This document shows positions 21,915 through 61,684 of a stretch of 64,000 bases of DNA, in pieces; the first letter of the stretch is position 1, and each line of letters opens with the position of its first letter. This DNA comes from a virus, in IMG/VR virus record IMGVR_UViG_3300046163_000066, positions 62,001 to 126,000 of that record; one strand, 5' to 3'. The position numbers and the translations under genes are program-made. Below the pieces are notes generated by a model, which was given only the letters and a program-made list of their open reading frames with translations, was not told where the DNA came from and made no database searches.

Positions 21915-21991
21915 CGGATAGGGGAAACTCGAAGAGTTGGGGAAAGGTTGTCCCCTTGTTTGCGTAGCAAACTCAGATTCGGCTAAGAATC
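21915..21991 (-). ncRNA. Conserved structured RNA element, copy A
   Basis: Minus-strand hairpins in order: 21976-21991 (GATTC/GAATC), 21958-21972 (GTTTGC/GCAAAC), then a core at 21915-21955 with GGGGA/TCCCC and AACTC/GAGTT hairpins. The 41-nt core is identical to copy B at 61601-61641. The outer two hairpins differ in sequence but keep pairing. It follows the stop of the 21998 gene and precedes a promoter. Confidence 0.75.
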
Positions 21992-21997
21992 GTTGAG

Positions 21998-22234
21998 TCA
22001 ATATACAACATTGGCTTCACGAAGGTAAAGATAAGCCACTAAACTTCCAGCCGCAATTCCCGCAGGACCCAAAGCCATACCCACAGCATCTGATTTCTTT
22101 TCAATAATGTAGGGAATCGAGTGAATAGTTTCGGCTAATCCAATAGTCATCATGGCAAGTGCCACAGAATAACCTACTTTGTGAATCAGTTTGGATTCTT
22201 GTTCAAAGAAAAGTTTAGGATAGTTGGTTACCAT
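21998..22234 (-). CDS. Small two-TM protein
   Basis: 78 aa. TM1 about 19-38 and TM2 about 50-70, C-terminus Y-L-R-E-A-N-V-V-Y. AGGAGG lies about 10 nt before the ATG. Last gene before the structured RNA element. Confidence 0.8.
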   Translation of the reverse strand: MVTNYPKLFFEQESKLIHKVGYSVALAMMTIGLAETIHSIPYIIEKKSDAVGMALGPAGIAAGSLVAYLYLREANVVY

Positions 22235-22249
22235 GTTGGTTGAGCCTCC

Positions 22250-24451
22250 TTAAGAACGACGGGCGTAGAAAATACCGCCTAAGATTCCAGCGACAGCAGC
22301 GATAACAGGTGCTACCAGAACTCCCTTAGCAGGTGAGGCTTCTTCCAAAGTATCAGTAATCTTGCGACGAGAGGCAACGTTTTTTAGAGACACGCCTTCA
22401 GACCAATTATAGTTTCCATGAATGTTCACAATTTCGTAGTTGAAAATTGCTTCTGCGAAATCATCCATTGAAACAATTAGATTATCTGAACTGTCAAAGA
22501 CACCACCTTTCTTGAAATCAAAATAACAAGCATCATATTCTTCTTCGGTCATGTCTGGTAATTTGGCCCATGAAGCGTCTTCCCACTCATCAACTCTAAA
22601 ATCAAAATATAATCCTGCTTGGGGCGCAATAGCACGAAGCATTTGTGGTCCTCCATAAGCAAGTCTGAATGGTCCAGAAAACTCATAATCTTCTTCAGGT
22701 GCTTCATCTTGACTGTTGAAAGTTTCAGCCGAGCCATACCATTGTGGAACTCCGTAGCCAGAATCCAAAGCGGTGTTGCCACCTTCTGAGTTAGGAACAA
22801 CTGGGTAAAGTTCTTCTCCAAGTTCAGCGTATTCCATTTCAGCAGACATAGAACCACAGCCACAGCCTTCTTCTTGTTCGCCACGGTATTTCTTGGTGGT
22901 GCCACAATCAGCACAGAAGGTTTCGCCATTGAACGATTCAGCAGCGAGTCCCATGTCTTGAACGGTGTCCCATGCTACTCCTTTAGCAATCTTTCGGGCT
23001 TGTTGGAAGTTGGGTCCTTTAGACCATGCACCAGAGTTAGGGTTTTGAACACCGGGTTGCACAAAGTATTTGGCTTTGGCTACGGGGTTGCGTCGAGAAA
23101 TATCTTGACCTACTGGTGGGTTATCTCCGACAATACCTGTGCGGTAATATCCGCCCATTTGTTGAGACATAACTTCACCGAAAACTGCATTCTTAGCCTT
23201 GCCACGGTTCATAAACTTGCCACGGATGTCTCGGAGGCGACCGCCTTCGGCATCAAAGGACTCTTCAGCACCTAAACCATAGAAACGATAATCGCCGTAA
23301 TCAGTTTCGGTTTCAACGTAAGCACTTCTTCCATCATCAATATCTACCTCAAAGTCTTCTTCGCCCGGATAAGGTTCACTTCCGACATTTGATGAAATCT
23401 CACCTTCAATGTAGTCTTCTTGTTCTTCAGTTACATCGCCTTCGATTGACCAACCGTATTGAGTGTGTGGGTTATCGTATCGTAGAATAACGGGCATATC
23501 TTCTTCGGTGTCAATACGGTCGTGGTCAATTAAGCCACTACCTTCAGCACTAAACCTGTAATTGTCGTTATGGTCATTAGCATAGTTTTCAGCATTCTCC
23601 GCCATATCAGAAACTACACCTGCTAAAACCCCTTCATCATCATACAGAACGGATATTTTCTTTTCAACAGCCCATGTAGGTGTTGTTCCTTCCTCATCAA
23701 TTCTTAATCGAACTTCCTTTGTGGTCTTCTCACCTTCAGCACCATACCATTGTGGAACTCCATGACCATTAAAGGATGAATCTTGTCCTGTGGTGTTAGG
23801 AACAATAGGGTATGACTCGTCACCCAATTCTGCGTATTCAATTTCAGCAGACATAGTAATGAGTTCTGATTCTGAGGGTCCTTCGGTGGATGGGTTGGCT
23901 ACTGTGGGGTCAGCAGGTTCGTAAGCCGAGCCAGATGGTTCGGTGGCTGGTGCAGCGAATCCTACGGATTCAGCAGACTTGTCTTCGTAATTGACAGCCT
24001 CTGCAACGCTGGTAGCATCATCAAGGAATGCAGAAACAACGAAACTTCCGGTTGAAGTAGAACCTGATTCAACGGCTTCTTTGATTTCTTCAATGTTAGT
24101 AGCGGAAGCAGGTGCGGCTTGAAGTGCATAACTGCCGACGGAATACTGAGCAGTAGAGCCGATTTCGTAGCGACGTGTTCGACGCTTGGTGCCTTCCATT
24201 CCTGAAACTTTGGCTTCTCCTGAACTCATATCATTGGTAATTCTAAGAGTCAAGAAATTGTGGTTGTCAGTAACACCAGCAACATAGAAAAGCGCACAAG
24301 GATACAAACGCTTTTGGTCATCCTCACTCATACTTTTGTATTGGGCATTAGAAACGACCCATGTGAACTTGTAGAAATTGATAGCGTCGTCGAAAGATGA
24401 AGCATCATATCCCCAATAGTCTTCAGATTGAACAAATAACATCTTACTCAT
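22250..24451 (-). CDS. Large acidic TM protein with PQW modules and A-x-E sites
   Basis: 733 aa from M-S-K-M-L-F. Very acidic, with one C-terminal TM helix (about 712-730) ending A-R-R-S. Two ~38-residue modules (near 23740-23855 and 22720-22840) read M-S-A-E-x-E-Y-A-E-L-G, P-x-V-P-N, G-V-P-Q-W-Y-G. A Cys cluster (C-A-D-C ... C-G-C-G) lies near 22850-22925. Many A-E-S-F and S-A-E sites. The ATG chosen has GGAG 9-10 nt upstream; another ATG lies two codons earlier and overlaps the preceding gene's stop. Confidence 0.87.
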   Translation of the reverse strand: MSKMLFVQSEDYWGYDASSFDDAINFYKFTWVVSNAQYKSMSEDDQKRLYPCALFYVAGVTDNHNFLTLRITNDMSSGEAKVSGMEGTKRRTRRYEIGSTAQYSVGSYALQAAPASATNIEEIKEAVESGSTSTGSFVVSAFLDDATSVAEAVNYEDKSAESVGFAAPATEPSGSAYEPADPTVANPSTEGPSESELITMSAEIEYAELGDESYPIVPNTTGQDSSFNGHGVPQWYGAEGEKTTKEVRLRIDEEGTTPTWAVEKKISVLYDDEGVLAGVVSDMAENAENYANDHNDNYRFSAEGSGLIDHDRIDTEEDMPVILRYDNPHTQYGWSIEGDVTEEQEDYIEGEISSNVGSEPYPGEEDFEVDIDDGRSAYVETETDYGDYRFYGLGAEESFDAEGGRLRDIRGKFMNRGKAKNAVFGEVMSQQMGGYYRTGIVGDNPPVGQDISRRNPVAKAKYFVQPGVQNPNSGAWSKGPNFQQARKIAKGVAWDTVQDMGLAAESFNGETFCADCGTTKKYRGEQEEGCGCGSMSAEMEYAELGEELYPVVPNSEGGNTALDSGYGVPQWYGSAETFNSQDEAPEEDYEFSGPFRLAYGGPQMLRAIAPQAGLYFDFRVDEWEDASWAKLPDMTEEEYDACYFDFKKGGVFDSSDNLIVSMDDFAEAIFNYEIVNIHGNYNWSEGVSLKNVASRRKITDTLEEASPAKGVLVAPVIAAVAGILGGIFYARRS

Positions 24452-24453
24452 TT

Positions 24454-25299
24454 TCATACTCTCCGTAATTGCGTTTCAAATCCTCCGCTAAATGGAATGG
24501 CTGATACCATAGTATCAGAGATGCGGAGAATAGTGTGGGTGCTTCGCCATTGGCTTAGGGGTAAGGTGCGACCAGTAGAAGTATCAAGATATGAGGAATC
24601 TACATCTGGGCTAAGAGCAACTTCTCCAAGACGACCATTGACGTTATCATCGGTGCTGTTGCGAGCCAAACTTCCGATTCGATTGCCTCCAACATCTCCA
24701 GAAGGTGGAGTCAAGAAAGGAGTATCAATCATAGAAACAAGATAAGGGAAGTCTCGATTAACTTCGGGAGCGAGGCGTGCCACAGGCAAACGGCTACCGT
24801 CATAAGTAATACCTACTCCTGCACCTGTGCTGGGGTCGAGGCTAACTGGGTCTTGGGAAGGAGTTTGGGTGTAAGGCATTCCGGGTCCAGTAATGAACTC
24901 GTTGTTTGTAGTATTCATAGAAGAAGCGGTTTGTCCGACTTCATCAACGTATTCAGAAGAAAATCCTTTTTCAGCAGGTTGGAATGAATATCCGATGTCG
25001 TGGGGATTAACATAAACTGGTTGAGCATCAACAATACCATCCATAAAGGGTGAATCATTAGCGATTGAGTTGGTGCCTTGAAGGTGCAATTGTTGATAAC
25101 CGAGGAAAGATTGTGCCAAAGAAGTTGGAACTTGGTCAATGGTGACTCCTGAACTTTCAATGTGCATCTCTTCTAAATTGGCAGGGGTGATACCATCTGC
25201 ACCGAAGACTGAAGAGACTTTGCTACGAAACTTTTCGTTGCCGAAGAATGCCGCAACACCGACCAACACGGCTCCGAGACCTACTTGTGACCAGCGCAT
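24454..25299 (-). CDS. N-terminally anchored membrane protein
   Basis: 281 aa from M-R-W-S-Q-V-G-L-G. TM helix at about 5-20 followed by N-E-K-F-R-S-K-V, then a long soluble Pro/Ser/Asp-rich region. Its layout is like the 10059 product. The start is 27 nt from the TATA centre; a longer frame overlaps the promoter. The stop overlaps the start of the next gene. Confidence 0.84.
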   Translation of the reverse strand: MRWSQVGLGAVLVGVAAFFGNEKFRSKVSSVFGADGITPANLEEMHIESSGVTIDQVPTSLAQSFLGYQQLHLQGTNSIANDSPFMDGIVDAQPVYVNPHDIGYSFQPAEKGFSSEYVDEVGQTASSMNTTNNEFITGPGMPYTQTPSQDPVSLDPSTGAGVGITYDGSRLPVARLAPEVNRDFPYLVSMIDTPFLTPPSGDVGGNRIGSLARNSTDDNVNGRLGEVALSPDVDSSYLDTSTGRTLPLSQWRSTHTILRISDTMVSAIPFSGGFETQLRRV

Positions 25300-25321
25300 G
25301 ATAATCATCTCTCTGTTCTGA

Positions 25322-25330
25322 TACTTAAAG
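25322..25330 (-). promoter_or_regulatory. BRE/TATA promoter, 27 nt from start at 25299
   Basis: CCGAAGT-CTTTAAGTA followed by TCAGAAC. Confidence 0.86.
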
Positions 25331-25339
25331 ACTTCGGTT

Positions 25340-25837
25340 TTACTCAATCAACGATTTTGGAAACGTAGTCCAGTTTAAAGTTTTTACAAGAAGTCCCATA
25401 AAATCCAGAATCAAGTAAAAATCAGCACGTTCATTAGCATCTGTGGCAAAGTAATGGCGAGATTGACGGCCTTTGAAAAAATAGTAGTAATCTATTCCAT
25501 CCCTTTGAATGTATTCAAAAGTAACGGCATCTTCTATGTAAGCACCCCCCGCCGTTCTACCGTTAATCAGCAGTTCAAGTCTAACCTCTTGTGAGACACC
25601 ATCGGGATGATAGTCTTCCTTTAAAACAACAAGGTAAGGTAATTTTTTGTTGTTGAGGTAATACTGATAATCTACTTGTTGAGTTTCATAATTGCTGAGA
25701 TTAAAAATACCTAAATCGTGGTTGAAACCTTTCGTTTTACCGATGCTTACGGAATCATGCCGTGACGTGCCTCTGTAAAGTTCAGACAAATCGTAGAGAG
25801 ATAAACCCCATTCTATCACGGCTTCTTGAGGTGTCAT
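25340..25837 (-). CDS. Hypothetical soluble protein
   Basis: 165 aa from M-T-P-Q-E-A-V (GGTGA 5 nt upstream; an in-frame GTG 12 nt earlier is the alternative). Mixed alpha/beta, aromatic-rich, with paired Y-Y motifs. No TM and no recognised family. Last gene of a long operon starting near 29134. Confidence 0.8.
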   Translation of the reverse strand: MTPQEAVIEWGLSLYDLSELYRGTSRHDSVSIGKTKGFNHDLGIFNLSNYETQQVDYQYYLNNKKLPYLVVLKEDYHPDGVSQEVRLELLINGRTAGGAYIEDAVTFEYIQRDGIDYYYFFKGRQSRHYFATDANERADFYLILDFMGLLVKTLNWTTFPKSLIE

Positions 25838-25842
25838 CTTGT

Positions 25843-27174
25843 TCACCACGGACTTCTAACACCGATGAGTTGAGCCAAAGCATTTTGTTTCTTAAGGTGC
25901 AACATAAGTTCATCTTGTTGCCCATACAAATCTCCTGTGCTTTGCACAGGGCTGGTTCTCATTGATAAAAACTCTGGCATGGTTACATCTTGTGTCCAAA
26001 GAGGTGCGGGTCCTAACATTTTAGATTCCACAAATCTTTCTGGGTCTGAACCTGTGGATTGTGAATTATCAAAAGAGTGTCGGTCAATAGTTGAACCATC
26101 AGTAGGTGTGCCAATACCATAAGGGTAAATACTGGTCAGCAAGGCAGGAGAGTTTTCAGAGCCAAAAGCAGAAGACAAGTTTCGAGGAAGTTTTCGCCAT
26201 TGAACCAACCAATCAGCATCTTCCTTAATGAAAATTAAATCTGATTTTTCTTCAAATGAATACCAACCACGAGGAAACTCCGAAACAGGATGGTCGGCAT
26301 CATTAGGCCAAACGACTTGAACTTTGGTGGGATAAACTCTGACAACATGAGCCGTAGCCAAACCTCCACCATCTCCAGAGGCTCGACTGATGTTCACAAG
26401 GTCACCGGGTTTCCACGGGCGACCCGATTCTGCAAAAGGACTTTGACCTACAATAGTTCCGAGGTTTCGATAAGAATTGGTGGGGTTAAGATAACGAGAA
26501 GCCGTAGAAACAGCATCGTTGAAAAACTTGGTTTGTTGTTCAAAAGATGTGCCACGAAAAGCAATTGATTTGGCAATTTCTCCGCTTGGATTGGATAAAA
26601 CTAATCCAATACCTTCTTGGTTAATACCTGCTTCTCCTAATCCTCCGATAACTTGTTGATACGGGTCGGCATCATATCCAGAGTAGAAATCTGGAGAAAC
26701 TAACATTTCTAAAGAATGTCCAGAACCCAAAGATTCGGTGCGAACTGAAACCCAAGTTTCGGGAATCCGAGTGGTTCTTTGTAAGTTGAGACCGACAGAG
26801 CGAAGTTCTCGACGTAAGGAATCAAAATTAAGTTCCGAAAGTTTCACTAACGGTTCTGATTCTGATAAGAAGTTACGACGATGTTGCATTTTGTTACGAA
26901 CTATTTCTAAGAACTGAGGATTTTGAACAAGGTCTTGAGGGGCAAACTGTGGACCGGGCGAATCTGAAGGTGGAGTATCAATGGGGCGGAGAGTCATAGG
27001 AGGTTGGCTGTGTCCAAAACGAGAATAGGCTCGGAGTGTGCCATCGCTTTGTTGATACAACTGATTGTTCATAGCCCAAACTAACACAGGCAAAGTTTCA
27101 CCTGAAGATTCGTCTTGGTAATAACGAGGCACAGGCCATCCAGATTTGGTAGAAGTTTCGGGTCCTGAAATCAA
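25843..27174 (-). CDS. Protein with SH3/KOW-like domain, virion candidate
   Basis: 443 aa, TTG start with GGAGG 7 nt upstream. The central segment (about 250-315: K-P-G-D-L-V-N-I-S, T-A-H-V-V-R-V-Y, V-Q-V-V-W-P) has the strand pattern of KOW/Tudor-like SH3 barrels. The next gene upstream has a related segment. The N- and C-terminal parts are low in recognisable motifs; no TM. It starts within the stop of the upstream gene. Confidence 0.82.
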   Translation of the reverse strand: MISGPETSTKSGWPVPRYYQDESSGETLPVLVWAMNNQLYQQSDGTLRAYSRFGHSQPPMTLRPIDTPPSDSPGPQFAPQDLVQNPQFLEIVRNKMQHRRNFLSESEPLVKLSELNFDSLRRELRSVGLNLQRTTRIPETWVSVRTESLGSGHSLEMLVSPDFYSGYDADPYQQVIGGLGEAGINQEGIGLVLSNPSGEIAKSIAFRGTSFEQQTKFFNDAVSTASRYLNPTNSYRNLGTIVGQSPFAESGRPWKPGDLVNISRASGDGGGLATAHVVRVYPTKVQVVWPNDADHPVSEFPRGWYSFEEKSDLIFIKEDADWLVQWRKLPRNLSSAFGSENSPALLTSIYPYGIGTPTDGSTIDRHSFDNSQSTGSDPERFVESKMLGPAPLWTQDVTMPEFLSMRTSPVQSTGDLYGQQDELMLHLKKQNALAQLIGVRSPW

Positions 27175-27740
27175 ATTGAACCCTCCGTAATACGACCAGA
27201 TAACAAGCGGTTGGTGATAACACGTAATAGTTCTTTGTCAAGTTCTTCTTGTCGAATCTTGGTAACTGGAATATCTCGACCTGAAATCTTAGAGTTTTGA
27301 AGAGTGCTTCCAAAGTTGCTGTGGCTGTTGCCGTCTTCAGGATTCCATGTTTCATAAGCAACTAAGGGAGCAGCAAAAACATCTGGATTAAGATTGGCAG
27401 AACCGTATTGATAAGAACTGCCACCGGGCATATCAGGATTGTATTGAGGATTGCTTTTTTCAAAATCTGGTGATTCGTCAAACTTTCGAGAGTGGTCTTT
27501 CAAACCTTCGTTGCTACCCACCAAAGGTAAAGGGTCAGCCCCATTATCGGTAACGATTGGAAGTGGTGATTGTTGATTTTGTCCCACAAAAATAAGGTCT
27601 TGATAGCGTTCTTTGCTCCATGTTCCATCATCCCAAACTACGGTAGCATGAGTAAAACTGGGATGAACAACTGTGCCGACTCCGAGATTTTGAATTGCGA
27701 CCGAAGTTACTCGATTACCTTTTTCATATTCTCGAAGCAT
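27171..27740 (-). CDS. SH3/KOW-like protein
   Basis: 189 aa. Residues 8-52 (G-N-R-V-T-S-V, G-V-G-T-V-V, A-T-V-V-W-D-D-G-T-W-S) look like the same small barrel as in the downstream gene. The remainder is Asn/Ser/Pro-rich. Starts 6 nt after the upstream stop. Confidence 0.8.
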   Translation of the reverse strand: MLREYEKGNRVTSVAIQNLGVGTVVHPSFTHATVVWDDGTWSKERYQDLIFVGQNQQSPLPIVTDNGADPLPLVGSNEGLKDHSRKFDESPDFEKSNPQYNPDMPGGSSYQYGSANLNPDVFAAPLVAYETWNPEDGNSHSNFGSTLQNSKISGRDIPVTKIRQEELDKELLRVITNRLLSGRITEGSI

Positions 27741-27746
27741 AAAGCA

Positions 27747-28274
27747 TCAACCCTTGCGGAACATTAAAGTTTCAGGGTCTTGCATAATTCTTTTGTATTC
27801 TGATTGCTTAGTGATGTATTGGTTGCGACCACGGCTCATGCCGAGACGATAAACTCCAAAAATGATGCCAGTAGTTACCAACAAAACTCCCAGATTGTTA
27901 GAAACCCATGAGTTAAGTCCTGAAACTGTGCCAACCAGCCGGTCTGTGGGTTCGGCATTGAAAGATTGGGCAGTATAAAGTCCGAATTGACTGGCTTCTC
28001 CACCGCTTGCCATCGTGCGTTCATCGTGATAAACAGGATTTTGACCTTCGTATGATTCAACCATTGGGTTGGATTCAGAAAATGGTGAGGCTTTCATGTT
28101 CATACCAAGTTCTTCGGGAGTGAACTTAGTGGTGGGGTGAGCATCACGAAACGCATCAGCAGACATAGCCGTGCCATCTGCCATAAGCAAATGTTCTTGA
28201 CCTTCAGCATTGGAAAAAAAGTTAGACTCTCGATTCATGTCTCGACGGACATAACCATTTGTCATAGAACTCAT
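27747..28274 (-). CDS. Single-TM protein with A-x-E sites
   Basis: 175 aa from M-S-S-M-T-N-G. Soluble acidic N-terminal part with S-F-N-A-E-P (about residue 105), then a TM helix (about 128-146) and a basic C-terminus. Start chosen 27 nt from the TATA centre; three codons upstream is an in-frame ATG. Confidence 0.83.
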   Translation of the reverse strand: MSSMTNGYVRRDMNRESNFFSNAEGQEHLLMADGTAMSADAFRDAHPTTKFTPEELGMNMKASPFSESNPMVESYEGQNPVYHDERTMASGGEASQFGLYTAQSFNAEPTDRLVGTVSGLNSWVSNNLGVLLVTTGIIFGVYRLGMSRGRNQYITKQSEYKRIMQDPETLMFRKG

Positions 28275-28296
28275 GTGCAACATTCAGTTGCACGAC

Positions 28297-28305
28297 TACT
28301 TAAAG
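28297..28305 (-). promoter_or_regulatory. TATA-like promoter, 27 nt from start at 28274
   Basis: CTTTAAGTA followed by GTCGTGC. Confidence 0.84.
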
Positions 28306-28309
28306 ATTC

Positions 28310-28846
28310 CTACCAGTTTTGAACGGCGGGTCGAACTCGGCGGTCTGTTTGAACGTAAGTTACAGATTGCTGTTGGTAATCAAGCGGTCGGTAAGGACTA
28401 AGTGGACTGTATGAAGCAGACCACGGCATTGGGAATCGGTATTCTGGAAGTGTGTCATTGGCTTGGTCCCAGAAAGGTTGTGAAGCATAACCTGAAACTT
28501 CTGAGAATGCGCTGGGTGTTTGATAATCCAGAGGGTTAAGATTTCGGTATTCTACATCGAAACTTTCGGCTCCCATAATATCTTCAGCACCTTCTACTAC
28601 GGTAGGATTAAGACGATTCAAATCTGCTGAGGACCCACTCATGTCTTGGTTCATTTCAGAACCAAAACTTTCGGAAACAAGTGTGCCACGAGTAACTCCA
28701 GTAGAGCGAGTTTCGGCTTCTGAAACTTCGGTGCAACCGCATCCATCAGAAGTTTTACCAAAATAATATCCTACTAAATAGCATCCCAGAACAACTGCGC
28801 CACCAATCATTCCGACTTTTTGGGCATTATCTGGTGTAATTTCCAT
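28310..28846 (-). CDS. N-terminally anchored protein with A-x-E sites
   Basis: 178 aa. TM helix about 9-28 (with C-Y-L-V-G-Y-Y-F-G), then C-G-C, and a soluble tail containing E-S-F-G-S-E and G-A-E-S-F-D-V-E. The C-terminus is Tyr/Pro-rich and basic. GGTGA lies 4 nt before the ATG. Confidence 0.83.
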   Translation of the reverse strand: MEITPDNAQKVGMIGGAVVLGCYLVGYYFGKTSDGCGCTEVSEAETRSTGVTRGTLVSESFGSEMNQDMSGSSADLNRLNPTVVEGAEDIMGAESFDVEYRNLNPLDYQTPSAFSEVSGYASQPFWDQANDTLPEYRFPMPWSASYSPLSPYRPLDYQQQSVTYVQTDRRVRPAVQNW

Positions 28847-28858
28847 AATATCACCTAA

Positions 28859-29134: not shown

Positions 29135-29156
29135 AACAATCACTTAACTGTTCTGA

Positions 29157-29165
29157 TACTTAAAG
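29157..29165 (-). promoter_or_regulatory. TATA-like promoter, 27 nt from start at 29134
   Basis: CTTTAAGTA followed by TCAGAAC. Confidence 0.84.
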
Positions 29166-29167
29166 AT

Positions 29168-29503: not shown

Positions 29504-29534
29504 GCTTGATTCCTCCGGCTATGCCTGAGAGGTC

Positions 29535-29753: not shown

Positions 29754-29776
29754 ATTTTTCATCTCCGTAGTTTTGT

Positions 29777-52942: not shown

Positions 52943-52964
52943 ACCCTACATAAGTGTTTTCTGA

Positions 52965-52973: not shown

Positions 52974-52982
52974 ACTGAGGTA

Positions 52983-55811
52983 TCATGCGTCAGAATCACG
53001 CTTTTTATCGGATTTTGATTTCTGGATACTGGAATGTTTCTTTGATTTGTTTCCTGAAATCGGGGCTGATTCGGATGGGGCTGGAACAAAGGTTTCGGAT
53101 GCCTTATCCAAAGCCTCCAAAGAATCGAACCCTGTGGTTTCTTGGAAATCCCCAGCCAGAGTATCTTCTAAACCTTCACGCCATGCGGCTTGTTGGCGAC
53201 GACGTGTGCGAAGGCGACCTTGACGCTCCTTTAGTTTAAGAGTTTCACGATATTCTTCTTGCTGTGAGCGAACCCAATCCTCAATTTCTTCAGGTGTGAT
53301 TCCCAATTTGCCTGATTTGAGAATCTTGGCTTTATACCATTCGACGTTTTCAACTGTAACTCGGAGTCCCATACTTTGTAATTCTTTAGCAATCATAGAA
53401 TCTACACCATCAAACAACAGATAATCAACCCAAACACGGGCTTCACGACCTGTGGTTCCCTGAATGATATACGGTTGGAATCCTGTGACTGAAATTGTAT
53501 TGTTGCCGAGTGTGGTTTCCACAGTTAGTGATTTAATGGCCGCTTGACCCTTACTTGTGGTATCAACTTCCCCACCAAACAACACCAAACCATCCAAAAA
53601 TGGAGTCATATTGCGAGAAATGTATAAACTGCTTTTAGCATCGGAATCAATTCCTACAAACTGGTCGGTTTGGTCGAGATATGCAACTTGCGTAGGAGGT
53701 TGTCGGTCGAAAGCAGAATTACAAGAAACAAGACTACCTCCTGTGGTATCTGCAAACGTAAAAATCCATTGGTCTCTGTCAGCATCCCATCGGGCAGAAA
53801 CTGGTCGGCGGGTGGTTGAACTGCCACCATCAATAGCGTTATTGAGAGATTGTCCAACTGAAATTAGGTCAATAGGCTGGGGTGGGTTCGGAGGAAAACC
53901 CAGAACAAACTTAGGTGGATTCTGATTGGTAATGCCCATAGTGAGTGTTCCAAAATCATACATGAAAATCACGGGTCCGACACCTGTGGAATATCCCAAA
54001 AATCCATAAGCGATGTTAGCAGGAAAACCAACTGGTAATTCATTTTTGTTAGAAGTTCCATATTGATAATAATTCGGAGACTGACTCGGAACTAAGAAAT
54101 TGAGTGGGTCTGGTTGAAGCCCTCCAAGTGTGGGGTCTCTTTCAAGTAAGACCTCCAATTCACGGTCTGCATAAGATTGATAATCCAGCATATCGGCTGT
54201 GGCTCGTTCTGGGTCTGCCAACTGAACCTCATACACATCTAACTGTTTAGCGACGGCTTCATCTTGGCGACTGTAAGTTGCTTGTTGAACTGCTTTACCC
54301 AACCATTTTTCTGGAAGTGTGAATCCGGTGGCTGTTTCAAAACCACCACCCTTGACAGCGAAAGGAAATATCGCTTCAGATTTTGTTGGCCGAAAGTTTG
54401 GAGCCCCTAAATCAAAAGCACCTAAACAATACTGCCAGTTAGCAACATAGATTTCAGTAGAGGTTGTGGCTCCATGTGTGACGTTATCAATACCAATAGT
54501 AACAGAGGTAATGAATGGGTCTGGACTTTCTGAGAAAGTTGGCATAATAACCGTGCCATAAGCACCGTTAAGATTGTAAGCAGGTAATGAACCATCGAGA
54601 CCCCAATTTTTGTTGCCTAATGCGGTGTAAAGTTGATTTAGTCCTGTGCCAGCAGGTGGTGGTTCAGTATCTGGTTGCCAAAATCCAACGAAAGGCGTTG
54701 TGAAACTTACTCCACCTGCCCCATCATCAGCGATGGCCTCTCCAGTTAGATTCATACACATAGTTGTAGCAGTTCCATCGCCAGTCAAATCTGCAAGAGT
54801 CATAGGGAAGGGTCCACCGTTGGTAACAACAAGGTCATGGATTCGACTGATGTAATACCCGTTGTCAATTGTAGTAAGTTCTGGAAAGTTGTATGTGAGA
54901 TACGGAGAAGCGGTGGTGTTGATACCACAAGCCTCATCTTCAATGGCTTTAGCATTTGGTTTGAGAGGCGAAACTCCGGGCAAATATCTGCCGATGTGGT
55001 TGGCTTGGTCTCCTTTCCAAGAAGCGGTAAAACTGAGACCAGCCTCAAAAAATATACCTGTATATGGAGTTTGGGCTTGCTTACCACCGGGAACCGCAGC
55101 AATAGTTGAAATCACAAAAGAGGTCTCAAGGATGAAGGTCAATTTACTTATCCAACCAGAGTAATTTTGTGATGTCGTCATCCCTTCAGAAGCAGCAATT
55201 CTTTGATGACCTGCTGCATAAACAACCAATTCTGGTTTTCCACCAGTAACAGGACCAAACTTAGCCACATCTACTGCATAAACTCCGGGTGTGCTATCCG
55301 AACCAAGACCTGTCAAATCAGGCTCTACTTCGTAGGGCATCCGACAAAGATAGGTGAAAAAGGCATTTTCAATGGAACTAAACGGTTGGTCAAGAAATTG
55401 TCCTTCAATAATCCCCGGTGTAACCCAAAACTTTCGGCGGTCATTAGCGTAACCTTCAGGTTCGGGGATGGGAACATCAGGGGGTGCTACCATACCAATG
55501 TTGTGCGCTCGAACAAAAGTTATGAAACCATCCCAAGCCCATGCTCCAGTCCCGCCATTAAGTTCTCCAAAAAAGGCACGATAACTTCCTGTAATAATGT
55601 AGAAATCATTGGCATAAGTGGTGCTTCTGATAATAACATCAAACTCTGAATAATCTGTATCAGCAAAACTGGGAATCCGAATGTCGCCGTTGCTTCGATT
55701 GTCACCACCAGCATTAAAAAGATTGGTATCTCCAAGTGTCAGAACTTGGTCCCATGCAAAAAAATGCGGATTAGGAAACTTTTTGGTGTCTAAATCGTAA
55801 GCCAATCCCAA
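52983..55811 (-). CDS. Giant capsid/spike-family protein (942 aa)
   Basis: Probably a TTG start (CAGGAG 9 nt upstream, same context as the TTG at 7285). About 800 residues of beta-rich, Thr/Gly/Pro-rich sequence without Cys clusters precede the family's C-terminal signature: L-L-F-D-G-V-D-S-M-I-A-K-E-L, V-E-N-V-E-W-Y-K. A long basic/acidic helical tail follows, ending K-K-R-D-S-D-A. It looks like a large spike or penton-like protein that plugs into the lattice through the shared domain. Directly follows a family member lacking that C-terminal part. Confidence 0.85.
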   Translation of the reverse strand: MGLAYDLDTKKFPNPHFFAWDQVLTLGDTNLFNAGGDNRSNGDIRIPSFADTDYSEFDVIIRSTTYANDFYIITGSYRAFFGELNGGTGAWAWDGFITFVRAHNIGMVAPPDVPIPEPEGYANDRRKFWVTPGIIEGQFLDQPFSSIENAFFTYLCRMPYEVEPDLTGLGSDSTPGVYAVDVAKFGPVTGGKPELVVYAAGHQRIAASEGMTTSQNYSGWISKLTFILETSFVISTIAAVPGGKQAQTPYTGIFFEAGLSFTASWKGDQANHIGRYLPGVSPLKPNAKAIEDEACGINTTASPYLTYNFPELTTIDNGYYISRIHDLVVTNGGPFPMTLADLTGDGTATTMCMNLTGEAIADDGAGGVSFTTPFVGFWQPDTEPPPAGTGLNQLYTALGNKNWGLDGSLPAYNLNGAYGTVIMPTFSESPDPFITSVTIGIDNVTHGATTSTEIYVANWQYCLGAFDLGAPNFRPTKSEAIFPFAVKGGGFETATGFTLPEKWLGKAVQQATYSRQDEAVAKQLDVYEVQLADPERATADMLDYQSYADRELEVLLERDPTLGGLQPDPLNFLVPSQSPNYYQYGTSNKNELPVGFPANIAYGFLGYSTGVGPVIFMYDFGTLTMGITNQNPPKFVLGFPPNPPQPIDLISVGQSLNNAIDGGSSTTRRPVSARWDADRDQWIFTFADTTGGSLVSCNSAFDRQPPTQVAYLDQTDQFVGIDSDAKSSLYISRNMTPFLDGLVLFGGEVDTTSKGQAAIKSLTVETTLGNNTISVTGFQPYIIQGTTGREARVWVDYLLFDGVDSMIAKELQSMGLRVTVENVEWYKAKILKSGKLGITPEEIEDWVRSQQEEYRETLKLKERQGRLRTRRRQQAAWREGLEDTLAGDFQETTGFDSLEALDKASETFVPAPSESAPISGNKSKKHSSIQKSKSDKKRDSDA

Positions 55812-55815
55812 AGTT

Positions 55816-56307
55816 TCACACTCCTGTTGTTTCCCACTCAAAAAAGTCTTGAGGGTCTGTGGGGAAATCCTCAATGGGTTCAACTAAAGCGTTAGAAATA
55901 AAATAAGTGACGTTCCAGTTCGTTCCGGGTGGAATCTCAATTGGAATCCAATTTTGAAGAACTGGAGAAGCAGAAGATGAAATCGGATATGGGGCTGCTG
56001 TGCCTGACATCCCTTGTGCATCTCGACCATCAAGAGTTTGATAGTAAGCCGTGGATTCTACCACGATGTTCACGAAACCACCGGGTTTCCAGTTGTTAGC
56101 CAAACCGTAAATGCCGGGAGTGCTACCAATGTATTGAAGAACCAAAAACTCATCGCCCTTTGTTGTTAAACGATTGGTAATGGTGGCAGTTCCAATTTTA
56201 GAATAGAACACAGATTGAGGGCGATTTTCCAAAAGTTCTATGTCTTTCGGTGGTAGATTGCCGAGGTCGGCTACAACCCATTGAAAACCTTGACGACGAA
56301 CTGACAT
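55816..56307 (-). CDS. Truncated capsid/spike-family paralogue
   Basis: 163 aa from M-S-V-R-R-Q-G-F-Q-W. It has the N-terminal and middle family motifs (F-L-V-L-Q-Y, Y-Y-Q-T-L-D) but ends before the D-G-P-D-x-L-I and W-Y-K-R block. That block appears at the end of the next gene. GGAGGA precedes the ATG. Either a genuine short form or the front half of a split protein. Confidence 0.82.
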   Translation of the reverse strand: MSVRRQGFQWVVADLGNLPPKDIELLENRPQSVFYSKIGTATITNRLTTKGDEFLVLQYIGSTPGIYGLANNWKPGGFVNIVVESTAYYQTLDGRDAQGMSGTAAPYPISSSASPVLQNWIPIEIPPGTNWNVTYFISNALVEPIEDFPTDPQDFFEWETTGV

Positions 56308-56311
56308 TGAA

Positions 56312-56671
56312 TCAATCCTCCAAACCGTAAGCACGGCGTAATTGTTTTCTAATCTTTTCTAATTCCTCTTCGGCATTGTTAAGCAAACGAGATTGGTTGC
56401 CTTGAATGTTGCGTCGAATCGGGTCGGCTTCAGGAATAAGTGTGGGAGCAGAACCTTCGGGGCGGATTTGTGAAACCCAATCTGGAGTTCCAGATGGATG
56501 AGCAATTTCGGAAGGTGTAACTTTCGGCTCTGGAGTTCGTTGTCGTTGAGTGGGGTCTGCACGTTTTCGTGTGTCTTGAAGACCTGTGCGTTCACCTTGC
56601 GCTTGGCGACGAAGTTTATCTCTGGCTTGTTGAGCCGCAACAGCCTTTTTCAAACTGTCGTCAGAGTCCAT
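56312..56671 (-). CDS. Basic, Pro/Arg-rich helical protein
   Basis: 119 aa, strongly charged, with Arg/Gln-rich helices at both ends and a Pro-rich middle. Leads the operon of the two family proteins. Possible capsid-binding or DNA-binding peptide. Confidence 0.8.
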   Translation of the reverse strand: MDSDDSLKKAVAAQQARDKLRRQAQGERTGLQDTRKRADPTQRQRTPEPKVTPSEIAHPSGTPDWVSQIRPEGSAPTLIPEADPIRRNIQGNQSRLLNNAEEELEKIRKQLRRAYGLED

Positions 56672-56694
56672 GTAGAAACCTATACGGTTTCTGC

Positions 56695-56703
56695 TACTTA
56701 AAC
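56695..56703 (-). promoter_or_regulatory. TATA-like promoter, 28 nt from start at 56671
   Basis: GTTTAAGTA followed by GCAGAA. Confidence 0.76.
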
Positions 56704-56715
56704 CTTCGTAGAATC

Positions 56716-58155
56716 TTAACGACGGTCGCCTTGACGGGTTGCTTTTGCATCGCCTTCATTACGGAATCCGGGCTTGGCATAGTTCTTAGCCTTTTGTCGG
56801 CGGTCGTTAGCGATAGCACCTTTCTTGCCATCAACATTTACTTGGTAATTGGTGAATTGTCCTTTCTTGTTGCGTCGAACATATCGGCGTGTGCCGTCTT
56901 GAAGGGTCATGCGAGTGCGAGCCTCTGCTGATTTTGCGACATCAGTATTGACTCCACGTCCTTGCCTCTTGTTGTCTCCTTGTCTAACAGGAATTGCATC
57001 TCCTTCGTTGCGGTATCCGGGCTTGGCATAATTCTTAGCCTTCATGCGTCGGTCAATAGCAGCGGCTCCCTTCTTACCATCAACATTGACTTGATAAGTA
57101 GTGAATTGTCCCTTGTTGTTGCGACGAACATACTTACGAGTGCCACCAGCAGTTGTCATACGGGTGCGAGGTTGTGCCTCGAACTCAGCAGAGCCAATCC
57201 ATTGTGGAACTCCGTGTCCTGAATCAACAACTGTGGATTCTTCTCCAAAGGAGTTAGGAACTACTGGAAGACCCATTTCAGTTTCAGCCATCATTGTGCC
57301 AACGTCAGAGTAAGGGTGGTGATGATTCATAGAACCTGTCATACCTTTGGACTCATCTCGACGAGACTTGAGGCTTTGCTTGTGGTGTCCACGGTGTCGC
57401 ATACCGATTGATTCGTCATCACGGTCATTGTAGCCTTGTTCTGCGCTACCATACCATTGTGGAACTCCGTTGCTGGAGGACAAAGCAGAGTTGTCTCCGT
57501 ATGAGTTAGGGATAACTGGTTCCATTTGAGTTTCGATTGTTTCTGAACCGAAAACACTATCAATAGCGTTTTCAATGCTACGGGAAGCACGGTCAATCAT
57601 ACCGACTGGATTTGCGTCTCCTTGGTCCCTGTGTCCAGACTTAGCATAGTTTCGGGCATTCATGCGTCGGTCAATAGAAGCCGAGCCTTTCTTACCTGCG
57701 ATATTTACTTGGTAAGGTGTGAATTGTCCTTTCTTGTTACGACGAATGTATTTGCGAGTGCCGTCAGCAGTTGTCATAACGGTGCGGGGTCCTGTTCCTC
57801 CGTAGCCGGAGGCTTCAAAAGTTTCTGCGGAACCATACCATTGTGGAACTCCGTCTCCAGATTCCAAAGCAGATTCTTCTCCGTATGAGTTAGCGATTAC
57901 AGGAACTCCCATGTATTCTACTTCAGCACCCATAACGCCAGCGATTTCATCTTTCATTTCTTGTGTGGCTTCACCGATGGCTTCTCCACGTAGTTTTCCA
58001 AAGAGGAATAGTCCACCGCCGATAGCAGTTAATCCGAGAGTCAAATAACCAGCAGGACCGTAACAGCCCAAACCAGATAGTTCTTTCATTGAACGGTAGC
58101 CAAGCACGCCACCGCCGATAATCATTCCAGCACCTGCAATTGTTTTAGCATCCAT
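56716..58155 (-). CDS. Polyprotein-like TM protein with three basic repeats
   Basis: 479 aa from M-D-A-K-T. Two TM helices (about 6-22, 36-54). The rest alternates acidic PQW modules (residues 76-111, 204-239, 289-324) with basic ~65-residue repeats (124-185, 330-394, 413-479). Each basic repeat reads G-T-R-x-Y-x-R-R-N, K-G-Q-F-T, Y-Q-V-N, G-K-K-G, D-R-R, A-K/R-N-Y-A-K. A-x-E sites lie between the units (W-Y-G-S-A-E, K-S-A-E-A-R). This is how a precursor of DNA-condensing peptides would look. AGGTG lies upstream of the ATG. Confidence 0.85.
   Translation of the reverse strand: MDAKTIAGAGMIIGGGVLGYRSMKELSGLGCYGPAGYLTLGLTAIGGGLFLFGKLRGEAIGEATQEMKDEIAGVMGAEVEYMGVPVIANSYGEESALESGDGVPQWYGSAETFEASGYGGTGPRTVMTTADGTRKYIRRNKKGQFTPYQVNIAGKKGSASIDRRMNARNYAKSGHRDQGDANPVGMIDRASRSIENAIDSVFGSETIETQMEPVIPNSYGDNSALSSSNGVPQWYGSAEQGYNDRDDESIGMRHRGHHKQSLKSRRDESKGMTGSMNHHHPYSDVGTMMAETEMGLPVVPNSFGEESTVVDSGHGVPQWIGSAEFEAQPRTRMTTAGGTRKYVRRNNKGQFTTYQVNVDGKKGAAAIDRRMKAKNYAKPGYRNEGDAIPVRQGDNKRQGRGVNTDVAKSAEARTRMTLQDGTRRYVRRNKKGQFTNYQVNVDGKKGAIANDRRQKAKNYAKPGFRNEGDAKATRQGDRR
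56719..57786 (-). repeat. Three in-gene basic repeats
   Basis: Copies at about 57601-57786, 56974-57168 and 56719-56919. The last two are adjacent; the first is separated by two PQW modules and a His/Lys-rich spacer. Confidence 0.85.
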
Positions 58156-58188
58156 TTGTTGCACCTAACTTGGCATGAGTTGTTCTGA

Positions 58189-58197
58189 TACTTAAAG
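58189..58197 (-). promoter_or_regulatory. BRE/TATA promoter for gene starting at 58155
   Basis: CCGAAGT-CTTTAAGTA followed by TCAGAAC. 38 nt to the start. Confidence 0.82.
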
Positions 58198-58209
58198 ACT
58201 TCGGTAAAA

Positions 58210-58326
58210 TCAATTGTGGGGTGATTTCCGTCGAAACCACATTCCACACGCATGACAAACTAAAGTCTTAGAATCTACATCACATTGTCTTCGGCAGGGT
58301 CCTCCTACACGAATCCATTCAGACAT
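58210..58326 (-). CDS. Tiny Cys-rich protein (38 aa)
   Basis: M-S-E-W-I-R start with AGGAG 9 nt upstream. Cys at C-R-R-Q-C and C-H-A-C suggest one zinc site; basic C-terminus. Overlaps the stop of the 40-aa ORF upstream. Confidence 0.7.
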   Translation of the reverse strand: MSEWIRVGGPCRRQCDVDSKTLVCHACGMWFRRKSPHN

Positions 58327-58441
58327 GAGAATTAACTCCTTGACACAACCTTTCGTATTGTTCATCAGAACAGATTCCTCGATAATGCTGGAACTTAAGA
58401 GCAACAAGGAACAAGTATCTACTCAAGCGGGTGTGTAACAT
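58319..58441 (-). CDS. Tiny hypothetical protein (40 aa)
   Basis: M-L-H-T-R-L start with GGTGA 5 nt upstream, overlapping the end of the 82-aa gene. Contains two Cys and an aromatic/basic middle. Its stop overlaps the next start (ATGTCTGA). Supported only by ribosome site and overlaps. Confidence 0.6.
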   Translation of the reverse strand: MLHTRLSRYLFLVALKFQHYRGICSDEQYERLCQGVNSHV

Positions 58442-58667
58442 CCTTATCACCAAGAGTCCAACGCAAAGTTTTGATTACTCCTTCCAATGCTTTTTTGTTG
58501 CGAGCCGCTTCTTTCATTACTGTGCGATTGTTTCGTTCTCTGGCTTCAAAGAATGTGTTCACCCAATAATTTTGTTTTCGCTCGGCAGCATACAGCATCT
58601 CTTCAATTTCATCCCATGTTCTTGCATAAGAAAAATGCTCGGAATCTTGGTGGTCGCTCAATGTCAT
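58419..58667 (-). CDS. Small helical protein
   Basis: 82 aa, charged helices, heptad-like. No TM or Cys. First gene of a three-gene run of overlapping tiny genes. Confidence 0.78.
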   Translation of the reverse strand: MTLSDHQDSEHFSYARTWDEIEEMLYAAERKQNYWVNTFFEARERNNRTVMKEAARNKKALEGVIKTLRWTLGDKDVTHPLE

Positions 58668-58707
58668 TATACATCAATCCAGTATGGTAATCTGGAAGGT
58701 GTGCTGA

Positions 58708-58716
58708 TACTTAAAA
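58708..58716 (-). promoter_or_regulatory. TATA-like promoter for gene starting at 58667
   Basis: TTTTAAGTA followed by TCAGCA. 45 nt to the start. Confidence 0.72.
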
Positions 58717-58722
58717 CTTCGC

Positions 58723-58995
58723 TTACTCTTCTGATTCAGAAGGTTCTGAGACAGGAGAGGTGGTTGCAGAAGAAATCCTTTCAGACTTGTTCAATGCGGA
58801 GGCGATGTAAATGAGAGTTTCCATAGTCAAGGCTTCCAAATTGACTTTGGCTCGACCAGACTTTTCATTTCGATTGTTCCATGAAGCAACGCTACGTTTG
58901 TTAAGAGAACTGAGTCTCTTACCTACATATTCTTGTAGTTGTTTTCGGCTGCAAAGCACACGCATTTGGGCTGGTGTCATACGACGGGGGTTCAT
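58723..58995 (-). CDS. Small basic helical protein
   Basis: 90 aa from M-N-P-R-R-M. Arg/Lys-rich helices, Ser/Glu-rich tail. Possible nucleic-acid binder. Start is 27 nt from the TATA centre; the longer frame reaches into the box. Confidence 0.78.
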   Translation of the reverse strand: MNPRRMTPAQMRVLCSRKQLQEYVGKRLSSLNKRSVASWNNRNEKSGRAKVNLEALTMETLIYIASALNKSERISSATTSPVSEPSESEE

Positions 58996-59017
58996 AGTAG
59001 TTGTATAGGTTTTCACT

Positions 59018-59026
59018 TACTTAAAA
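59018..59026 (-). promoter_or_regulatory. TATA-like promoter, 27 nt from start at 58995
   Basis: TTTTAAGTA followed by AGTGAA. Overlaps the stop of the 37-aa membrane gene. Confidence 0.78.
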
Positions 59027-59134
59027 CTTCTTTTCAGCATTATTGACACGCCAACTTTCAATGAACAACCAACCAAATAATGTCAGAAATATCCCTGCCA
59101 CAAAAATTGCTGCGAACCAATCTGCATCATTCAT
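59021..59134 (-). CDS. Tiny single-TM protein (37 aa)
   Basis: M-N-D-A-D-W start; TM helix about 7-27, then W-R-V-N-N-A-E-K-K-F. Overlaps the upstream tiny gene by 4 nt, with GGAG about 10 nt before the ATG. Confidence 0.72.
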   Translation of the reverse strand: MNDADWFAAIFVAGIFLTLFGWLFIESWRVNNAEKKF

Positions 59135-59229
59135 AGTATTTCATCTCCAAAAAACCAAGACCACGGAAACATCAACAACCAACCAACTGCACTAAACAGA
59201 TTCAAGAAGAGATTTACAAGAAACCTCAT
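59131..59229 (-). CDS. Tiny single-TM protein (32 aa)
   Basis: M-R-F-L-V-N start; almost wholly hydrophobic with several Trp/Phe. AGG lies upstream of the ATG. It sits 33 nt after the TSP3 gene in the same operon. Like the next gene, probably a membrane micro-protein. Confidence 0.65.
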   Translation of the reverse strand: MRFLVNLFLNLFSAVGWLLMFPWSWFFGDEIL

Positions 59230-59262
59230 CCGTCATTACCTGCCGTGTAGTGTAGTGGAAAC

Positions 59263-60946
59263 TTAGAGTTCCAACTCATCGAGGATGCCGTCGTTATCAT
59301 CGTCGTCATCCAAGTGGTCGGAAAGTCCGTCGTTGTCGTGGTCGAATTGACCGGTAGCATCGTTTCCGTCGTTCTGCTCGAACCAATCGGAAAGGCCATC
59401 GTTGTCGTCATCGAGGTCAGACAAGTCCCAGATACCATCGTTATCGTGGTCGTAACGGTATGATGAGAATGCTCCACCGACTTCATCAACGTCAAGAATG
59501 TTGTCGTTGTCATCGTCGTCATCCACAGCATCGTTTAGACCGTCGTTATCGTGGTCACGCATAGCGGAAGAACCGTTGTCGTAAAGGTCTTTGTAGTTGT
59601 CAATACCATCGTTATCAATGTCCAAGTCGAAACGGTCTTCAATACCGTCGTTGTCATGGTCATAAATGTCGGTGTTATCGTTACCATCATTGACTTCTTC
59701 ACGGTCATTTAGACCGTCGCCATCGTCATCGTCATCTTCGGCATCATTGATACCGTCGTTGTCGTGGTCCAGAGGTGAATCATCCATTGAATCAGGGATT
59801 CCATCGTTATCGTCATCGTTGTCGAGGTCATCAGGAATGCCGTCTCCATCGTTGTCGTTATCGCCAGACTGGTCTTGGTTGTCAAGTTGTTGGTCTTGCT
59901 GTGTATCAGTTTGTTGTCCCTGTTGGCCTTGCTGACCATTCTGGGTTTGACCTTGCTGTTGTTGGCTTTGCCCGTTTTGGTTTTGACCATTCTGTTCTTC
60001 GGCTTGTTGTTCCGATTGCTGACCGCCTTGCTGACCACCTTGTTGTTGTTGGCCTTGACCATTATCTTGTTGTTGTCCTTGCTGACCTTGCTGACCTTGT
60101 TGGGATTGACCCTGCTGACCCTGTTGGCCTTGTTGTCCTTGTTGTCCCTGTTGGCCTTGCTGTCCTTGCTGTCCTTGCTGTCCTTGTTGTCCTTGTTGTC
60201 CCTGACCTTGACCTTGTTGTTGGCCTTGTCCTTGACCTTGACCTTGACCTTGACCCTGCCCTTGTCCTTGACCTTGGCCCTGTCCCTGTCCTTGTCCCTT
60301 GTCCTTGTCCTTGTCCTTGACCTTGACCCTGACCTTGACCCTGACCCTGACCTTGACCTTGCCCCTGTCCTTGTCCTTGACCCTGCCCTTGTCCTTGTCC
60401 CTGTCCTTGACCTTGACCTTCACCTTGTCCTCCAGCGTCGGATTCTCCGCCACCTTCTGTGCCACCATCGCCGTTACCGGCTTGGGACTCTTGGAAATCG
60501 GGGTCATAAGCATCGGGGATTCCATCTCCATCGGAGTCAGAATACTCACCATCGTTAGGGTCGGTTGGGAATTGGTCAGTAGAGTCAGGCTTACCGTCGC
60601 CATCAGTATCTGCGTTGTTCGGGTTAGTTCCCTTTGCATATTCTTGAGCGTTGGTTAGACCATCGTTATCTGGGTCCGCATTTCCATCACCGCCATTGGT
60701 GGGATTTAGACCATTACTGACTTCCCATCCATCGGGAAGGCCATCTCCATCGGAGTCGGCATTGTTCATATTGGTGCCATGAGTTTGTTCTTCAGAGTTG
60801 GTCAAACCATCTCCATCCCAATCAGCCCCACCATCGGAAGGGTCGAGTGGGTCAGAACCATCGGCGGCTCCAACACCTGCGCTCATAACGAGCATCAGGG
60901 TAGTCAGTAGTGCAAGCATCGTATTTTTGAATCTGTTATTTTTCAT
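59263..60946 (-). CDS. Secreted Asp-rich TSP3-type calcium-binding protein with Gly-Gln linker, frameshifted
   Basis: N-terminal frame from 60946: signal peptide (1-~27, hydrophobic core then V-G-A-A), then D-x-D-x-D-G calcium repeats of TSP3 type up to about residue 150. The linker of G-Q units is entered in one frame and left in another: one 7-nt unit (GGG instead of GG, near 60297) breaks the 6-nt periodicity. Skipping that G restores G-Q-G-Q, then Q-G-Q repeats and ~200 residues of D-H-D-N-D-G-type repeats. Span is 3n+1, ~560 aa. Likely a surface or matrix protein. Confidence 0.86.
60060..60420. repeat. Short tandem repeats encoding (Gly-Gln)n and (Gly-Gln-Gln)n
   Basis: Units of 6 nt (CCTTGT/CCTTGA/CCCTGT on the plus strand) and 9 nt. 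A single 7-nt unit near 60297 shifts the frame. Slippage-prone. Confidence 0.9.
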
Positions 60947-61144
60947 AGTAATCGTTTTCCTATAATGTGTTGTTCATAGGGAACCCTCTGTTCCCTCTAA
61001 TAACCAATAGGACTAATCAACTATTTAAAGGTTAGGAGAGATTGTATCACGATTCAACTAACAGGGCTGATTTTACATTAAACCTGCTTACCTCTGCCGT
61101 CTTACCTCTAAAACGGTGGTTGGGTGTTCGTCGAACCCTTACAA
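60947..61144. other. Longest gene-free stretch in the window
   Basis: Holds the TSP3 leader with a 7-bp hairpin (60978-60996, AGGGAAC/GTTCCCT), a TATA box, and ~110 nt of otherwise featureless sequence with a weak bulged hairpin at 61122-61138 after the 61145 gene. Confidence 0.6.
61022..61030 (-). promoter_or_regulatory. TATA-like promoter for the TSP3 gene
   Basis: CTTTAAATA, 80 nt from the start at 60946. The predicted transcript would begin near the 60978-60996 hairpin. Confidence 0.72.
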
Positions 61145-61519
61145 TTATTCTGTAAAGTATGAAGTATTTTCTTCAGGAAAATCGTCGTCATCAGATTCTT
61201 CTTCGTCTCCGAGTTCTTCTACGGCGACACGATAACGTCGGGTTTCTCCGTTCACCACACGTTCTACAATAACGGTGACACGAAGCCCTTCTTCTTCAGA
61301 ATCTTTGGCGACCAAAACTTCTTCAACAACTTGGGACTTAGGGAGATTGTTGGACAACAAAGCAGCCACCATACGATTGATGTCTGCAATTTGAGCCAGC
61401 AAAGAAGTCTTGACTCTGTAATTGTAGGGTTGATAACCCCACCTGCGGTCTGAATCTTTCGGGTTGTTATACGGGTTGCTAAAAGTGTCGTTGAAAATAT
61501 ACTTCCAAATGTCATCCAT
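61145..61519 (-). CDS. Hypothetical acidic protein
   Basis: 124 aa. Mixed fold, acidic Asp/Glu tail, no TM. Start 28 nt from a TATA-like box. Confidence 0.8.
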   Translation of the reverse strand: MDDIWKYIFNDTFSNPYNNPKDSDRRWGYQPYNYRVKTSLLAQIADINRMVAALLSNNLPKSQVVEEVLVAKDSEEEGLRVTVIVERVVNGETRRYRVAVEELGDEEESDDDDFPEENTSYFTE

Positions 61520-61542
61520 GACTCTTCATAACATCAATCACT

Positions 61543-61551
61543 CATTTAAAG
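61543..61551 (-). promoter_or_regulatory. TATA-like promoter, 28 nt from start at 61519
   Basis: CTTTAAATG preceded by AACGTCCAAAT, the same upstream string as at 21869. Confidence 0.72.
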
Positions 61552-61563
61552 ATTTGGACGTTT

Positions 61564-61579
61564 AACCGTTATAGCGGTT
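61564..61579 (-). terminator. Hairpin downstream of RNA element copy B
   Basis: AACCG-6-nt-CGGTT between the conserved element and the next promoter. No U-tract. Confidence 0.4.
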
Positions 61580-61600
61580 TGAAATCTATGATTCCACACC

Positions 61601-61684
61601 CGGATAGGGGAAACTCGAAGAGTTGGGGAAAGGTTGTCCCCGCCAGATGGCGAAGCCTCTGGTTAAGGATTCGACTGAGAATCC
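61601..61684 (-). ncRNA. Conserved structured RNA element, copy B
   Basis: Same order as copy A: hairpin 61667-61684 (GGATTC/GAATCC), hairpin 61643-61662 (CCAGA/TCTGG with inner GGC/GCC), then the identical 41-nt core 61601-61641. The first hairpin overlaps the last codons and stop of the 56-aa gene. Confidence 0.75.

Follow-up and report, generated by a model that had tools for sequence, protein, structure and literature searches.

Two hairpin arrays with a common core

The window analysed here is a stretch of 64,000 nucleotides, bases 62001-126000 of the 166,176-base IMG/VR record IMGVR_UViG_3300046163_000066 (G000), which, judged by the genes described below, most likely comes from a virus of archaea. 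At two places in the window, between minus-strand genes, lies an array of abutting mini-hairpins that we treat as two copies (c1 and c2) of one element. Each copy of this element comprises four to six hairpins, which we number from P0 to P5, and the plus strand of the window is the element strand of c1 and c2. The first-pass annotation of this DNA had described two copies with an identical 41-nt core; the copies are indeed identical, over one nucleotide more (CCGGATAGGGGAAACTCGAAGAGTTGGGGAAAGGTTGTCCCC, 42 nt at 21914-21955 and 61600-61641), the G000 record holds no other exact copy of this core, and none was expected in shuffled sequence. The flanking hairpins it had reported (GTTTGC/GCAAAC versus CCAGA/TCTGG, and GATTC/GAATC versus GGATTC/GAATCC) are present as described, and to these we add P0 and the hairpins within the core. 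Relative to c1, c2 keeps P1 to P3, carries different hairpins at P0 and P4, and has a longer P5.

The same annotation had taken the re-pairing of the flanks as compensatory change. Since two hairpins without relation to each other, GTTTGC and CCAGA, occupy the same place, c1 and c2 alone show no base-by-base covariation, and the reading gains its footing from further copies, which do covary. It had also placed both copies directly after a stop codon, which is right for c1 and for the rest of c2, but P5 of c2 forms the last codons of a 54-amino-acid (aa) open reading frame (ORF).

Further copies and conservation of the fold

A motif scan, followed by a search with a covariance model (R1) built on P1-P3, yielded four further copies, as the first-pass annotation had predicted of such a search: c3 (~50.5 kb) and c6 (28.0 kb) in G000, and c4 (114.4 kb) and c5 (135.7 kb) in the 160,342-base relative G001. 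The six copies received R1 E-values from 1e-12 to 3e-6 and the next match E=2.6, values that are descriptive only because R1 was trained on the same six copies. G001 is collinear with G000, with 146 of 225 ORFs matching at about 40-85% protein identity, and c5 recurs unchanged in a strain-level relative of G001. Copies c3 and c4 sit between the same two genes in the same, sense orientation, downstream of a gene for a 52-53 aa membrane protein (83% identical between the two viruses), and c5 and c6 each follow an endonuclease VII-like gene, in antisense orientation to it. At both of these orthologous sites the structure has been retained while the sequence has been altered. The places in G001 that correspond to c1 and c2 hold no element, including the one after the G001 homologue of the 54-aa ORF, which implies gain or loss of the element there. 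No copy was found in G005 (a 150,353-base contig, more distantly related to G000 than G001 is), in ~95-kb magrovirus-like contigs, or in the metagenome-assembled genome (MAG) that holds contig L073. Two other matches were discarded: a 17-mer match in L003 falls within an ORF, and an R1 match in L140 lies inside a cellular coding region, read as uracil-DNA glycosylase. Each of the four copies in G000 is directed away from the 28-50 kb region, but four copies, with a GC skew governed mainly by gene strand, provide no test of a replication origin.

The stems have changed in sequence yet still pair, which argues that the folded shape matters. We aligned five helices of the six copies by hand and shuffled the 3′ arms among copies 5000 times. 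Pairing was found in 128 of 134 cells, a figure inflated by the choice by eye of arms that pair, and double changes between sequence pairs numbered 120 against a shuffled mean of 26 and maximum of 82; both measures exceeded all 5000 shuffles. An automatic alignment of P1-P3 was 83% paired, compared with at most 58% when the 3′ partners were slid by 1-3 columns, and 5 pairs had changed on both sides. P2, P4 and P5 each occur as four or five distinct stems among the copies, P1 by itself covaries little, and three loops are conserved (GGATA, WAGGYTG and GGCTRMGA). Chains of at least three abutting hairpins (≥5 bp) occur only four times in 460 kb; two of these belong to the element family, and the longest is c1. 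Whole-region folding energies were only moderately unusual: against shuffles, the element strand had a mean z of -2.4 with DNA parameters and -1.5 with RNA parameters.

That the element belongs to no known family, as the first-pass annotation had supposed, agrees with Rfam (release 15), which gave no match at gathering cut-offs for the window, the six copies or the relatives, and chance matches only in permissive searches. We regard it as a genuine and new family of elements in archaeal viruses, conserved in structure, that may or may not act as RNA.

As a separate observation, the ~95-kb magrovirus-like and related shorter contigs (L035, L040, L045, L046, L049, L041 and L042) carry a different conserved structured element (TAATCGTAGGCGTTAATGACGGTCA..GGTGCGAAGCC) in the corresponding syntenic position, after the gene for the 52-53 aa membrane protein; it has 4 covarying pairs and an Rfam search gave no match.

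Placement at gene promoters

In G000, G001 and G005, genes are preceded by a promoter whose TFIIB recognition element (BRE) carries A at -4/-3 and whose TATA box, of the CTTTAAGTAGT type, stands ~30 nt ahead of the start codon, a distance suggesting that these viruses, which encode TFIIB, make leaderless mRNAs. Each of the six copies has a stop codon on one side and, on the other, the promoter of the following gene, which scores 6.6-21.5 bits in the gene direction, so that the element holds a fixed position just upstream of a gene promoter whichever way it points; most promoters of the genome are without such hairpin arrays. At c1 the start codon (ATG at 21846) follows the TATA box by 30 nt. 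The common upstream string that the first-pass annotation had noticed, AACGTCCAAAT, is there at both c1 and c2 and proves to be the BRE flank of this promoter, with A at -4/-3 upstream of the TATA box at c1; it has two exact matches in 166 kb, both beside these copies. Some boxes read symmetrically on both strands, and we considered them as promoters of the element itself; this was rejected, as the BRE model points the boxes at the genes. A T-run, as in an archaeal intrinsic terminator, was seen by eye after none of the copies.

Table 1. Features of the two window copies and their surroundings (window coordinates).
Feature	Coordinates	Strand	Remark
c1 P0, TAATC-GAA-GATTA	21895-21907	+	
c1 P1, CTCC-GGATA-GGGG	21912-21924	+	loop conserved
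c1 P2, AACTC-GAA-GAGTT	21926-21938	+	stem swapped in other copies
c1 P3, GGGGA-AAGGTTG-TCCCC	21939-21955	+	conserved loop, covarying stem
c1 P4, GTTTGC-GTA-GCAAAC	21958-21972	+	
c1 P5, GATTC-GGCTAA-GAATC	21976-21991	+	
78-aa ORF	21998-22234	-	its stop codon precedes c1
TATA box TTTATAA of gene ending at 21466	21870-21876	-	6.6 bits in gene direction, 3.0 in element direction
AACGTCCAAAT, BRE-bearing flank of next gene's promoter, c1	21878-21888	-	flank score 3.1 (promoter mean 1.97)
c2 P0, AACCG-TTATAG-CGGTT	61564-61579	+	resembles P0 of c6
c2 P1, CCC-GGATA-GGG	61599-61609	+	
c2 P2, AACTC-GAA-GAGTT	61612-61624	+	
c2 P3, GGGGA-AAGGTTG-TCCCC	61625-61641	+	
c2 P4, CCAGA-(TGGC GAA GCC)-TCTGG	61643-61662	+	
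c2 P5, GGATTC-GACTGA-GAATCC	61667-61684	+	complement codes 3′ end of 54-aa ORF
54-aa zinc-ribbon-like ORF	61663-61827	-	upstream of c2
TATA box TTTAAA of gene 61519-61145	61545-61550	-	13.0 bits in gene direction, 3.2 in element direction
AACGTCCAAAT, BRE-bearing promoter flank, c2	61552-61562	-	

Evidence for a possible folded DNA strand

The element strand is antisense to the neighbouring genes in four of the six copies (c1, c2, c5 and c6) and sense in c3 and c4. Among triloop hairpins of at least 5 bp in the copies, seven of 10 carry a GNA loop when read on the element strand, every one closed by C-G, compared with none of 10 on the other strand and a background of 101 in 1212 (8.3%). These C(GNA)G triloops occur at P0, P2 and P4 in most copies. 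Since GNA loops are confined to the element strand, the stable caps sit on that strand whatever the direction of the genes. A C(GNA)G hairpin loop is needed for the extrusion of promoter hairpins in phage N4, a dsDNA virus in which the process is driven by supercoiling and is strand-specific (PMC4496689), and this type of loop includes the most stable DNA loop known (PMC9828363).

The likeness to the early promoter hairpins of N4, those used by its virion RNA polymerase (vRNAP), extends to their shortness, the C(GNA)G triloop and the restriction to one strand (following the rule in PMC4496689). Unlike N4, the element has four to six hairpins in a row and conserved loops of 5-8 nt, and the genes adjoining it have ordinary TATA/BRE promoters, whereas an N4-type hairpin promoter starts transcription about 11 nt from the hairpin centre. 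A search for an N4-like single-subunit RNA polymerase (PF00940) gave no match, nor did the control genomes.

We tentatively read the element, with somewhat less than even confidence, as a dispersed, structure-conserved cis element of a group of large archaeal viruses that most likely acts as folded single-stranded DNA (ssDNA). We slightly prefer this reading, a DNA hairpin site specific to one strand, to that of a structured RNA because the C(GNA)G loops lie on the element strand, are highly stable in DNA and allow hairpin extrusion in N4, and because the folded strand is kept regardless of the direction of transcription, beside a promoter and with an N4-type loop. Two further points speak for DNA: wobble pairs are rare (5/134), and the folds depart further from their shuffles with DNA parameters than with RNA parameters. 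The first-pass annotation had named a DNA site independent of transcription as the alternative to its own view; that alternative now comes out slightly ahead, as a site that would form hairpins rather than as a plain protein-binding repeat.

Negative supercoils collect near promoters. Hairpins could accordingly be extruded from supercoiled DNA, with negative supercoiling behind polymerases leaving the adjoining promoter causing the C(GNA)G-capped hairpins to form on the element strand, or they could form on ssDNA at a fork, the trigger then being single-strandedness during replication. A viral or host protein might read the exposed GGATA, WAGGYTG and GGCTRMGA loops, and candidate outputs include replication priming or processing, recombination, and local control of a promoter or boundary. 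A more specific proposal, which we consider rather doubtful, is that a strand-specific, self-extruding array of DNA mini-hairpins with N4-type C(GNA)G caps serves as a dispersed cis site for a dedicated protein and evolved independently of N4.

Several observations weigh against a folded DNA strand. RNA also has loops capped by sheared G-A pairs, and the mRNA at c3 and c4 would carry the folded strand, since these copies are sense. The triloop enrichment (p=2.7e-6 against background) was spotted post hoc, and its count becomes six of nine if P2, which has the same sequence in c1 and c2, is counted once. The folding parameter sets give C(GNA)G no bonus, c5 folds no better than its shuffles, and neither a protein partner nor a part in replication came to light. 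The wobble pairs lean slightly towards an element-strand RNA (5 G.U versus 2 A.C); tried as a test of strand, five against two does not decide.

Alternative explanations

Nearly as likely as the DNA hairpin site is a structured RNA, a viral noncoding RNA or untranslated region (UTR) element in which the transcribed element strand folds and its three loops bind protein or RNA. Sense copies would derive from the 3′-terminal part of the preceding gene's mRNA, as would suit the orthologous c3 and c4, which lie in a 3′ UTR, and antisense copies from divergent transcription. Like noncoding RNA and UTR families of the Rfam type, the element has compensatory helices and conserved loops, a covariation typical of RNA and compatible with ssDNA too; unlike them, its strand and promoter logic misfits a transcript in four copies. 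At these four antisense copies the promoter scores at most 3.2 bits in the element direction compared with 6.6-13.6 in the gene direction, and where an element-direction box exists its BRE flank is poor. Symmetric TATA boxes are nonetheless over-represented beside the antisense copies (4/4, compared with 21/122 promoters, p=0.001, post hoc), so that divergent transcription stays in play as a competing explanation. The missing T-run, the mixed orientation relative to genes and the lack of an Rfam match also speak against an RNA. Of the functional RNA that the first-pass annotation had proposed, the additional copies and covarying stems bear out the structure, but not an RNA read from the gene strand.

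One RNA candidate was set aside: in gut phage contigs L031-L033, the spacer between the template repeat and the reverse transcriptase (RT) gene of a diversity-generating retroelement contains a sequence (CTGGATAGG...GGAAAGGCTGTCC) resembling the P1-P3 core, at 18.3 bits, and this is one locus in the whole collection, about the chance expectation. Reverse transcriptase (PF00078) was not found in G000 or G001.

It is improbable, though worth weighing, that the element is a palindromic repeat like repetitive extragenic palindromes (REP) or miniature inverted-repeat transposable elements, copied within the genome into intergenic gaps and without viral function. The 42 nt common to c1 and c2 and the empty counterpart places in G001 would suit such copying, as would the mixing of modules (c2 has the core of c1 and a P0 like that of c6) and the constantly intergenic location. 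Template switching at quasi-palindromes can, moreover, maintain complementary arms without selection. However, two of the four sites are orthologous in G001, in the same orientation and with structure kept as sequence changed. The element shares with REP and bacterial interspersed mosaic elements a dispersed, intergenic, palindromic character in either orientation, but it numbers two to four copies per genome, and its loops are conserved where its arms vary and are replaced. Searches of G000 and G001 gave no match to the Y1/RAYT transposase (PF01797), for which controls matched, and none to TnpB (PF07282; IS200/IS605, omega-RNA).

Very unlikely is the last explanation, hairpins at the 3′ ends of gene-strand mRNAs that act as terminators or exonuclease blocks at transcription-unit boundaries with strand and loop irrelevant: all copies do come after a stop codon and ahead of a promoter, and both strands fold about equally well, but the loops and C(GNA)G caps track the element strand and are antisense to the genes in four copies out of six, no T-run follows, and long hairpin chains are rare and absent from most promoters, so that the gene-strand terminator, processed small RNA or 3′ UTR element of the first-pass annotation finds no support.

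The virus and its relatives

The proteins of the window are mostly unrecognised by PHROGs and Pfam, with few assignments. Outside the window, G000 encodes both subunits of the archaeal DNA polymerase D, an MCM-like helicase, a primase-like protein, TFIIB, ribonucleotide reductase and endonuclease VII; among named viruses, relatives of its TFIIB are found exclusively in archaeal viruses. Its DNA-binding proteins include the Endo VII-like protein, MCM and a MarR-like 658-aa protein. No relative turned up when named phages and plasmids were searched at the nucleotide level.

The ends of G000 (L007:1-3462 and L013:2714-6176) form a 3.46-kb inverted terminal repeat, 99.4% identical, and the genome may therefore be linear and near complete, the alternative being an assembly artefact. 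A 227-aa protein encoded in the window (16933-17616, minus strand) is 81-83% identical across G000, G001 and G005 and is perhaps structural; a sequence search of the PDB gave no match, and a structure model (pLDDT 45) was too poor and was not used. L073 (PALK01000017.1), a 136-kb contig binned in a Rickettsiales MAG, encodes a DP2 related to that of these viruses (56% identical over its length) and looks like a mis-binned relative.

Implications

The cis-acting structures of uncultivated archaeal viruses are very poorly known. In the family described here the fold is clearly constrained, the strand that folds can be inferred and the position upstream of promoters is fixed, which makes the question of RNA or DNA testable. 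If the element acts as RNA, it would constitute a new viral RNA family; if as DNA, it would extend the hairpin principle of N4 to archaea, and a self-extruding array, if true, would amount to a DNA-structure code in archaeal viruses.

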